A DNA stretch of 64,000 nt from contig NZ_JAIOHK010000031.1 in the NCBI RefSeq assembly GCF_019913785.1, forward strand, positions 1 to 64,000, read 5' to 3'. Position 1 is the first letter of the stretch, and each line of letters starts with the position of its first letter. The translations under genes and the position numbers were made by a program. Below are positions 60,105 to 64,000 of the stretch, piece by piece. This DNA is from Altibacter sp. GTDB lineage: Bacteria; Bacteroidota; Bacteroidia; Flavobacteriales; Flavobacteriaceae. The notes beneath the pieces were generated by a model that was not told the DNA's origin, searched no databases, and saw nothing but the letters and a program-made list of their open reading frames with translations.

Positions 60105-61985
60105 ATGGGAGAACAAAAAGTAAGTAAGGGTATTAAAAAAAAGGACCGTGCTAGGTTTATTGGCCATTTGTTAAACGATATCAAAGCCTTGGAGCAAATG
60201 TTGGATGAAGGTATCATTGAAGATGATATTGTTCGTATTGGTTCAGAACAGGAATTCTGTTTGGTAACAGAAACATGGCGCCCATCCGATAAAAATGAGG
60301 AAATATTAGCTGCCATTGATGATCCTCATTTTACAACCGAATTGGCCCGTTACAATCTAGAAATCAATCTAGACCCTATCGAACTTAAGGACGATTGCTT
60401 TACAGAAGTAGCAACACAGCTCGATTCCTTATTGCAAAAAGCAAAAGAAGTCGCATCAAAATTTAACACAAAAGTAGTATTAACAGGGATATTACCTACG
60501 ATAAGCAATGCCGAGTTGGAGTATCATTATATGACACCTCAGCCAAGGTATTGGGCCCTGAACAATATGCTGAAGGAAGTACGTGGCGACGATTTCCAGT
60601 TACATATAAAGGGGGTGGATGAACTATCTTTAAAACACGATTCGGTGTTGTTTGAGGCTTGTAATACGAGCTTTCAAATGCACTTGCAAATTCCTCCTCA
60701 AGATTTTATTTCGAGTTATAACTGGGCGCAGGCTATATCAGGCCCCATTTTGGGAATCAGCACAAACTCCCCGCTACTGTTAGGCAGAGAATTATGGAAT
60801 GAAACCCGTATTGCCTTGTTTCAACAGAGTATTGACACACGATATTCATCTTACGCTTTAAAAGACCAACAGGCGCGGGTATCCTTTGGTACAGCGTGGG
60901 AATCTGGCTCGATCGCAGAAATATTTAAAAATGATATTGCCCAACACAAGGTAATCCTCTCCAAGGATATTGACCGAAGTTCGGTGGAACAACTGTCAAA
61001 AGGAATTATTCCGAAACTTCCCGCTCTCAATCTACACAACGGTACTATTTACAAATGGAATCGACCCTGCTACGGCGTGGGTGGCGGAAAGCCTCATGTG
61101 CGTATCGAAAACCGCTATATTGCTTCCGGCCCTTCCACCCTCGATGAAATGGCCACCTTTGCATTTTGGGTCGGACTTATGATTGGACGTCCAAAGAAAT
61201 TTGACAATATGGAACTGGTCATGGATTTCCGAGATGCGAAGGCCAATTTTATAAAAGCAGCAAGAACCGGAAAATACTCTGTCCTAAACTGGATGGGAAA
61301 GCATTATTCGGTGAAAGATCTTGTTTTAAAAGAACTGCTTCCCATTGCAAGAAAAGGCCTTATTAAAGCTAGAGTAAATCCCGAAGATATCGCGAAGTAT
61401 TTAGAGATTATAGAAACACGCGCACATGGAATTACAGGCTCGGAATGGCTCATTTCTAATTATCGTACACTGAGACGCTCAATGAAAAAAGATGATGCGC
61501 TTCGGATACTAACTAAAAATAGCTACGAGAATCAAGAGAGAGGGCATGTGGTAAACGATTGGCCAAACATTTTGGAGCACAATCCACAACTCGATTCGGC
61601 ACATTTGGTAGGCCATATAATGTCCACTCAATTATTCACAGTACACGAAAACGATCTCGCGAACTTGGCTACCCATATTATGGAATGGAAAGGAATCCAT
61701 CATGTCCCGGTAGAGAATCAATCGGGAAAACTTTGTGGGTTACTCACTTGGACCCATATGCTTAAATACAAAAAGAAGGAAGATGGTCCGTTACTCGAAA
61801 CAGTGGCTGATATCATGGTGAAAAATATAACAACTATTTCTTCCGGAGATCGAATATCAGATGCAATCCATCTCATGAAAAAAAACGGTTTCGGTTGTCT
61901 ACCTGTTGTAAAAGGTAAAGAACTAATAGGTATAATAACAATAAAAGATGTAATCGCATTTGCCAATGGTAACGCTTCAAAATAG
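60105..61985 (+). CDS. GCS2-type amino-acid ligase fused to two CBS domains
   Basis: A 626-residue fusion from MGEQKVSKGIKK (ATG 60105; the track's TTG is earlier). Residues about 40-400 fit the glutamate-cysteine ligase type 2 fold (IGSEQEFCLV, RYNLEINLDPIEL, NTSFQMHLQIPP, PHVRIENRYIASGPS with the conserved Arg). The last 125 residues hold two CBS repeats (HIMSTQLFTVHENDLANLATHIMEWKGIHHVPV and DIMVKNITTISSGDRISDAIHLM), which usually sense adenosine nucleotides. The linker between (400-500) is unknown. The product is not known; classical glutathione synthesis is unlikely without a gshB partner. Confidence 0.85.
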   Translation: MGEQKVSKGIKKKDRARFIGHLLNDIKALEQMLDEGIIEDDIVRIGSEQEFCLVTETWRPSDKNEEILAAIDDPHFTTELARYNLEINLDPIELKDDCFTEVATQLDSLLQKAKEVASKFNTKVVLTGILPTISNAELEYHYMTPQPRYWALNNMLKEVRGDDFQLHIKGVDELSLKHDSVLFEACNTSFQMHLQIPPQDFISSYNWAQAISGPILGISTNSPLLLGRELWNETRIALFQQSIDTRYSSYALKDQQARVSFGTAWESGSIAEIFKNDIAQHKVILSKDIDRSSVEQLSKGIIPKLPALNLHNGTIYKWNRPCYGVGGGKPHVRIENRYIASGPSTLDEMATFAFWVGLMIGRPKKFDNMELVMDFRDAKANFIKAARTGKYSVLNWMGKHYSVKDLVLKELLPIARKGLIKARVNPEDIAKYLEIIETRAHGITGSEWLISNYRTLRRSMKKDDALRILTKNSYENQERGHVVNDWPNILEHNPQLDSAHLVGHIMSTQLFTVHENDLANLATHIMEWKGIHHVPVENQSGKLCGLLTWTHMLKYKKKEDGPLLETVADIMVKNITTISSGDRISDAIHLMKKNGFGCLPVVKGKELIGIITIKDVIAFANGNASK

Positions 61986-63177
61986 CACGTTAGAAAAGTC
62001 TATAAAAGTTGAACGAGTTATTGGTGCCCTAAAAGGAACAACACCGGGACCAACCACTATTTTTGTCGGAGGCATTCACGGAAATGAGCCGGCCGGAGTT
62101 TTTGCGCTTCACAATGTGCTAGAAAATCTCAAAAAAAAGGATATTCCCGTCAAAGGAAATATTTATGCAATCGCAGGTAATTTATGGGCATTAGAACATG
62201 GGCGACGTTTTCAGAAAGAAGATCTAAATAGATTATGGTCACGGGACAAGGTGCAAAATTTACGAAATGGAGCCATTCAGCATCCCAAAAACCAGGATGT
62301 AAAGGAACAGATCGATATTTACATAACTTGTAAGGAAATATTGGACAACAACAACGGGCCATTTTATTTTTTCGATCTGCATACCACTTCTAGTGAGACC
62401 ATGCCTTTTATCACGGTAAACGACAACCTACTGAATAGAAAGTTTACGAGCCAGTATCCCATTCCAATAGTGTTAGGGATCGAAGAATATCTAGAAGGAC
62501 CACTACTTAGCTATGTGAATGAATTAGGTTATGTGGCATTTGGTTTCGAAGGGGGACAACACGACGACATATCCTCCATCGAAAATCACATGGCATTTGT
62601 TTATTTAAGCCTTGTATTTGCGGGTTGTATTATAAAAGAAGACATCGATTTTGATCATCAGTTTGGTATACTCGCAAAGTACGCTATCTCTACCAATAGT
62701 TTTTTTGAAATATTTGATCATTTTAAACTAAAAAGTAACGATACTTTCAGCATGCATCCCGGGTTTATTAATTTTCAAACCATCCGAAAAGGTCAAGAAT
62801 TAGCCGTATACAACAACACCGAGATTTCAGCACCCCACAACGGAAGAATTTTTATGCCTTTATACCAGCATCAAGGGAGCGATGGTTTTTTTATTATTAG
62901 GAGTATTCCGCTCTTCTTCCTAAAACTTTCTGCCCTCCTTCGAAGAATCCACCTCGATCAGTTCCTCACCTATTTTCCCGGAGTGAACTGGCAAACCAAA
63001 AAAAAACAGGCCCTTGTAGTAAATAGAAAACTTGCATTCTTTTTTACCAAAGATTTTTTTCACTTATTGGGGTACAGAAGCAAAGAAATCGATAAAAACC
63101 ATCTCATCATGAAGAACCGTGAAACGGTCACAAGAAAAAAGGACTATAAGGATACCTTATGGTGGAAGAAAAAATGA
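61966..63177 (+). CDS. succinylglutamate desuccinylase/aspartoacylase-family protein
   Basis: A 403-residue M14-like deacylase. It starts at ATG 61966, overlapping the GCS2-CBS gene by 20 bases (the track's TTG is 6 bases earlier). Zinc-site motifs are GGIHGNEPAGVFALHN and the FDLHTTSSET segment. The protein is longer than typical AstE/AspA (about 330) with an extra C-terminal basic tail (TRKKDYKDTLWWKKK). The overlap implies it acts on the product or substrate of the ligase. Confidence 0.82.
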   Translation: MVTLQNSTLEKSIKVERVIGALKGTTPGPTTIFVGGIHGNEPAGVFALHNVLENLKKKDIPVKGNIYAIAGNLWALEHGRRFQKEDLNRLWSRDKVQNLRNGAIQHPKNQDVKEQIDIYITCKEILDNNNGPFYFFDLHTTSSETMPFITVNDNLLNRKFTSQYPIPIVLGIEEYLEGPLLSYVNELGYVAFGFEGGQHDDISSIENHMAFVYLSLVFAGCIIKEDIDFDHQFGILAKYAISTNSFFEIFDHFKLKSNDTFSMHPGFINFQTIRKGQELAVYNNTEISAPHNGRIFMPLYQHQGSDGFFIIRSIPLFFLKLSALLRRIHLDQFLTYFPGVNWQTKKKQALVVNRKLAFFFTKDFFHLLGYRSKEIDKNHLIMKNRETVTRKKDYKDTLWWKKK

Positions 63178-63236: not shown

Positions 63237-64000
63237 ATGTTGCAAAGAACCATTAAGAATTTTACTCAGAATCCGAAGAACGATATCCTATCCGGACTTA
63301 CCGTTGCCTTGGCACTAGTTCCCGAAGCAGTGGCTTTTGCCTTTGTGGCAGGAATTGACCCCTTGGTGGGGCTCTACGGTGCCTTTATGATGGGCATAGT
63401 GACGTCACTCTTTGGAGGGCGTCCCGGAATGATCTCCGGTGCCACGGGAGCTATGGCAGTAGTGATGGTGCACCTTATTCAGAAAGGAAATGAAGTAGGA
63501 GATGCTTTGGCAACACCTGTTGAAAATCTTGGACTACAGTGGTTGTTTATTACCCTTTTGTTTGTTGGTCTCATACAGATTACTGCCGGTGTTTTCCGTC
63601 TGGGAAAATTTGTACGTTTAATTCCACACCCCGTAATGATGGGGTTTGTCAATGGATTGGCCATTGTCATATTTCTATCCCAACTCGGACTTTTTACTGA
63701 AAATATAAACGGAACACAACAATATATGCAGGGCAGTGCTCTTTGGGTCATGCTGGGTCTTGTAGGACTCACTATGGCTATTATGTATGGCCTTCCGAAG
63801 CTTACAAAAAAAATACCAGCAGCCTTAACCGCAATTATTGTCGTGGCTTGTATTACCATATTTGGGGGAATTGATGTGAGTACAGTGGGATCATTCATTA
63901 AAGATGGTGGTGGTGACGGTTTACAAGGTGGCTTACCCACTTTTCAAGACCAAATATTTACCCTAATATATACATTACAAGGACATTGGGAGTTAATTCT
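63237..64000 (+). CDS. SulP-family anion transporter (partial, runs off window)
   Basis: The first 254 codons of a SulP transporter; missing from the ORF track because the frame is open at the window end. It starts [53 protein letters not shown], the SulP N-terminal signature, then [18 protein letters not shown]. SulP proteins carry sulfate, bicarbonate, dicarboxylates or chloride; substrate is not readable here. A C-terminal STAS domain is expected beyond the window. Confidence 0.92.

Follow-up and report, generated by a model that had tools for sequence, protein, structure and literature searches.

Two adjoining genes of Altibacter sp., one resembling a ligase that joins amide bonds and the other a hydrolase that breaks them, raise the question of whether both enzymes act on one compound. 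They lie in a 64,000-nucleotide stretch of DNA (contig NZ_JAIOHK010000031.1, positions 1 to 64,000), hereafter the window. An earlier reading of its letters, the original prediction, had proposed that one enzyme synthesizes a compound and the other degrades it. We compared the two proteins with profile and structure databases, surveyed their relatives and gene neighbours in other genomes, and weighed the functions that could account for the pair.

Two overlapping genes and their domains

Both genes are on the forward strand. The ligase gene (60105–61985; ATG at 60105, stop at 61983–61985) encodes 626 residues, starting with an 'MG' that the alignment shows to be kept in nearly all homologues, and the hydrolase gene (61966–63177; ATG at 61966, stop at 63175–63177) encodes 403 residues. 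Comparison of the two ORFs confirmed the 20-base overlap described originally (61966–61985). Its exact length is not conserved, with intergene gaps of about −83 to +13 bases across 75 pairs when computed from longest-start ORFs; the conserved feature of the pair is tight adjacency, not overlap length. A gene for a SulP-type anion transporter (63237–63998) follows on the same strand, 59 bases downstream, an order also seen in locus L033 but not general. Rfam searches found no RNA element by the pair in the window or in nine related loci, and PADLOC gave no match for the ligase or the hydrolase.

The first gene product had been called a GCS2-type ligase. Its score against the Pfam GCS2 profile (PF04107) is 17.1 bits for the full protein and 18.1 for the ligase part, under the cut-off of 21; 24 of 29 members of the ligase family match that profile at E ≤ 1 (best 1e-10). 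A PDB sequence search with a profile of the ligase part returned no real match, and a fold search was required. The AlphaFold2 model, built on alignments of the window's relatives (pLDDT 89.6, pTM 0.88), was matched by Foldseek over its ligase part to YbdK (1r8g, TMt 0.79), to plant GCL (2gwc, TMt about 0.70) and to yeast GCL, with E values of 1e-11 to 1e-13. Judged by its predicted structure, the ligase has the GCS/YbdK fold; the earlier assignment therefore stands for the fold, while by sequence the protein is only a remote relative of GCS2.

Two motifs, G46-x-E48-x-E50 and R333-I-E335-x-R337, are invariant among the 29 homologues. The former corresponds to the metal-binding G-x-E-x-E strand and lines up with that strand in YbdK, in an alignment of low probability (hhalign probability 6%) that is too weak for mapping substrate residues. 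The ligase thus shares with YbdK and plant GCL a common fold, the G-x-E-x-E metal motif and the RIExR strand, but differs from them in its sub-cut-off Pfam score, its CBS domains and its hydrolase partner or fusion. Its ligase part is also longer, at about 490 residues versus 372 in YbdK.

The CBS domains had been overlooked. They form a C-terminal pair (61617–61964; residues about 505–620) that scores 86.4 bits against the Pfam CBS profile (PF00571; cut-off 24). The second domain carries a conserved GIITxxD motif, in which T612 and D615 are nearly invariant. Foldseek matched the C-terminus of the ligase to CBS proteins, AcuB among them, whose solved structures contain AMP, ADP or ATP, and the CBS pair is a predicted adenine-nucleotide sensor.

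The second gene product was correctly recognized as AstE-like. It passes the Pfam AstE_AspA_cat profile (PF24827; 59.7 bits, cut-off 25), and its AlphaFold2 model (pLDDT 90.7, pTM 0.91) agrees, with Foldseek matches to AstE (1yw6, a succinylglutamate desuccinylase), DoeB (6twm), aspartoacylase and CphZ (8ein, a cyanophycin dipeptide hydrolase). With these proteins it has in common the fold and the HGNE, RxxxxDLNR, HTT and catalytic Glu motifs. It is unlike them in having its own MPLYQ signature and a 90-residue extension, and it fails every NCBIfam equivalog (AstE, AspA and DoeB: 49.6, 39.5 and 12.5 bits versus cut-offs of 305, 180 and 402). The extension, delimited at 62908–63174 by alignment and homologue lengths, occurs at the C-terminus of ligase-linked copies in Flavobacteriaceae and Cyclobacteriaceae, and is absent from the fused and GshB-linked copies described below. 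Seven residues are invariant: H38, E41 and H139 as zinc ligands, E195 as the catalytic residue, and R81, N88 and R89 as predicted carboxylate-binding residues. The protein was aligned with aspartoacylase and AstE over the part from HGNE to H139; by homology with aspartoacylase, N88 and R89 would presumably bind the alpha-carboxylate of the amino acid set free, which would make an N-acyl amino acid the expected substrate.

Linkage and distribution of the pair

Among 150 relatives, the hydrolase subfamily is present in all 36 genomes with a full-length ligase and in 13 of the 114 without (Fisher 4e-24, a statistic that ignores shared ancestry). The original prediction had staked itself on this co-occurrence, and the pair does occur together. 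Among the 150 relatives the hydrolase was in no case present without a ligase, and the hydrolase directly follows the ligase in 30 of 30 fetched relative loci. A scan of genome contigs gave at least 586 stretches encoding relatives; when the best 80 of these and the window were taken for their neighbours, the hydrolase was next door in 75 of 81 loci. Four of the six misses fall at the end of a contig or close to it; the other two, L046 and L074, are genuine exceptions in which other genes follow the ligase.

In seven small genomes of family f6, from several genera, ligase, CBS pair and AstE-like domain form a single ORF of about 800–930 residues, with the domains in the order of the two separate genes. 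This natural fusion is the strongest single evidence for a common function. The genes flanking the pair vary between lineages, and no third gene is constant beside it; because its neighbours change while the pair stays, we conclude that the pair is a stand-alone unit. ScpB-like, RluB-like and PriA-like neighbours in family f38, named by eye, were set aside as a lineage-specific gene order unconnected with function. The neighbour survey that the original prediction had called for therefore supports linkage through adjacency and fusion, mainly in Bacteroidota, and we consider a functional link between ligase and hydrolase nearly certain.

Across the phylum, the ligase was found in 115 of 395 sampled genomes. 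The hydrolase adjoins it in families f38 and f32, the latter a distant family with CBS-free ligases. Family f19 has the hydrolase elsewhere in the genome, away from the ligase, whereas some ten other families, as well as two genomes of family f22, have the ligase alone, with no hydrolase of this subfamily found. Farther away, single-gene relatives of about 490 residues without CBS domains, about 33–35% identical to the ligase, occur in the Actinomycetota Streptomyces (L212), Tsukamurella (L213) and Nonomuraea (L214); the two of these records that are annotated show no AstE-like gene alongside. A more distant single-gene relative is found in the haloarchaeon Natrinema. Searches of viral contigs and phages returned a CBS-domain match only and no ligase relatives. 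Since the ligase occurs alone in more distant lineages, it is probably the older core, to which some lineages added the CBS pair and the hydrolase as accessories; its solitary occurrence in many lineages also means that its basic function can do without a cycle with the hydrolase.

Some genomes of family f38, most of them from a single genus, have two tandem ligase genes before the hydrolase (L168, 9013–12883; sister loci L184 and L186–L192). The two tandem copies differ clearly in sequence.

A second ligase type beside the hydrolase

The 13 hydrolase copies of the ligase-free relatives, together with one extra copy in genome G078, are close paralogues of the ligase-linked hydrolase and are located immediately downstream of a GshB-like ATP-grasp gene. 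In these 14 loci the GshB-like gene itself follows a MATCAP/QEGLA gene (611–628 residues). The GshB-linked hydrolases form one clade (support 99/83) in a tree whose root is unsure, and they share the subfamily signature MPLYQ..G..G with the ligase-linked hydrolases. Positions 172, 173 and 181 differ consistently in the GshB-linked clade and are for that reason candidates for substrate choice.

In the window's family the ligase pair was counted in 26 genomes, the GshB-type set in 14 and the two together in only one (one-sided p 0.046, again with relatedness ignored by the statistic). Most simply, two unrelated ligases would supply one kind of hydrolase with substrate. More tentatively, and at a probability well short of even, a single hydrolase subfamily may serve both a CBS-gated GCS2-like ligase and a GshB-like ATP-grasp ligase accompanied by a MATCAP peptidase, with both ligases making the same amide; this would amount to a nucleotide-gated make-and-break cycle of Bacteroidota, sometimes carried by one bifunctional protein.

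Fourteen genomes of the window's family (L217–L230) carry the MATCAP–GshB-like–AstE genes as an operon, in which the MATCAP protein (about 616 residues) has an extra N-terminal part of about 260 residues without a Pfam match. Loci L231–L234 have MATCAP and GshB genes without a hydrolase. As originally noted, there is no glutathione synthetase near the pair: GshB-type genes are absent from the window's contig and present on other contigs of the genome. That genome also holds other ligase–hydrolase sets. On contig C66, GshB-like ATP-grasp, FGase-like and MATCAP/QEGLA genes form one operon (L125, 5880–8904). Contig C69 has an amidoligase cluster (L112, 6947–11875) with, in a row, an RLAN-type ATP-grasp gene, a GCS2 gene, an N-formylglutamate amidohydrolase-like (FGase) gene and, by eye, a GNAT-nitrilase-fusion lookalike; its GCS2 gene is more typical than the window ligase and adjoins the ATP-grasp and FGase genes. 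A fourth set, on contig C15, has a DoeB-like AstE after two RimK-type ligases (L126, 7453–10700).

A proposed make-and-break pair for one compound, and the alternatives

We favour the reading of ligase and hydrolase as a self-contained metabolic module that performs opposing reactions on one compound, with a probability of about one half. The ligase would activate a carboxylate with ATP and couple it to an amino group, borne by a second amino acid or by an amine, the gamma-carboxyl of glutamate being the usual donor in its family. The CBS pair would bind AMP, ADP or ATP and probably set ligase activity by energy state. The zinc hydrolase would cleave an N-acyl amino acid, in all likelihood the one made by the ligase, and the two enzymes together would control the amount of a single small amide or dipeptide-like compound. 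For an adenine-nucleotide-sensing ligase and a zinc hydrolase, the best reading of this substrate is one N-acyl, possibly gamma-glutamyl, amino acid. Computation supplies the elements behind this proposal: the two folds, catalytic motifs that are intact, a linkage that is constant within the order, the natural fusion and a hydrolase subfamily common to a second ligase type. From these we infer a single transcript and a shared substrate, handled in opposing directions under nucleotide control. Of the original proposal, then, the functional link is borne out by co-occurrence, adjacency and fusion; that the pair makes and degrades a single compound is the most economical interpretation of that link, and the ligase without hydrolase in many deeper lineages speaks against it.

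Adjacency and fusion would fit equally well if the two enzymes acted in sequence, the ligase adding an aminoacyl group (e.g., gamma-glutamyl) to an intermediate and the hydrolase later taking off that group or a different acyl group, in the manner of EgtA and EgtC on the route to ergothioneine. Weak EgtA sequence matches in 15 of 29 ligases point the same way, and in one genome EgtD and EgtB genes (L168, 13018–15304) lie immediately upstream of the ligase–ligase–hydrolase genes. However, other genomes of that genus carry the tandem set with no EgtB or EgtD alongside, EgtD (PF10017) was not found in the window's genome, and a pathway of this kind is at odds with the lack of a constant third gene next to the pair. 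We therefore consider a sequential pathway rather unlikely overall, and a link to ergothioneine specifically, given a single adjacency unrepeated in sister genomes and the absence of EgtD from the window's genome, was rejected as unlikely.

Ordinary thiol synthesis, in which the ligase would make gamma-glutamylcysteine that is used as such or passed to a GshB homologue elsewhere, with the hydrolase recycling it, includes the case that the original prediction had named against itself. The nearest solved folds are indeed gamma-glutamylcysteine ligases and YbdK, a PF04262-type gshA was not found, and a gene elsewhere in the window's genome passes the NCBIfam glutathione synthetase cut-offs. This gshB-like gene nevertheless sits in its own FGase/MATCAP operon, and contig C69 carries another and better GCS2 gene. 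The distribution does not fit plain glutathione synthesis: the GshB family (NF009110) has no member in 16 of the 36 relatives with the ligase, all seven fused cases among them; conversely, 38 of 58 GshB-bearing genomes lack the ligase. Overall, we consider thiol synthesis improbable. Regulated turnover of an osmolyte or nitrogen-storage dipeptide, with the CBS pair sensing ionic strength or energy charge, is in our estimate very unlikely. The named matches belong largely to genera that we take to be marine, and by Foldseek the hydrolase is related to DoeB, an enzyme of ectoine breakdown, and to CphZ, which acts on a cyanophycin dipeptide, but f32 ligases have no CBS pair and no transporter or stress gene is constantly linked.

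An amide ligase beside an amide hydrolase is already known as a kind of system, of which the CBS-bearing pair with its fusion is a variant. Glutathionylspermidine synthetase/amidase combines an ATP-dependent amide ligase with the matching amidase in one protein; the likeness to the window pair is in logic only, as both domains have unrelated folds. Iyer et al., in 2009, reportedly predicted amidoligase–peptidase gene clusters in which a non-ribosomal amide ligase lies beside a hydrolase of unrelated fold, the same general idea of a ligase next to a hydrolase. Literature searches for GCS2 with CBS or AstE, which did not cover Iyer et al. 2009, where an earlier mention is possible, agree with the original statement that no function has been assigned to the pair; a chytrid gene-transfer paper that gives both gene names separately is unrelated to it.

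The occurrence of one hydrolase with either ligase constrains the possible chemistry: a common product would have to be one that each of the two ligases can make. The widespread pair with its natural fusion offers a testable route to a so far uncharacterized metabolite of common marine bacteria, since one protein should both make and break it.
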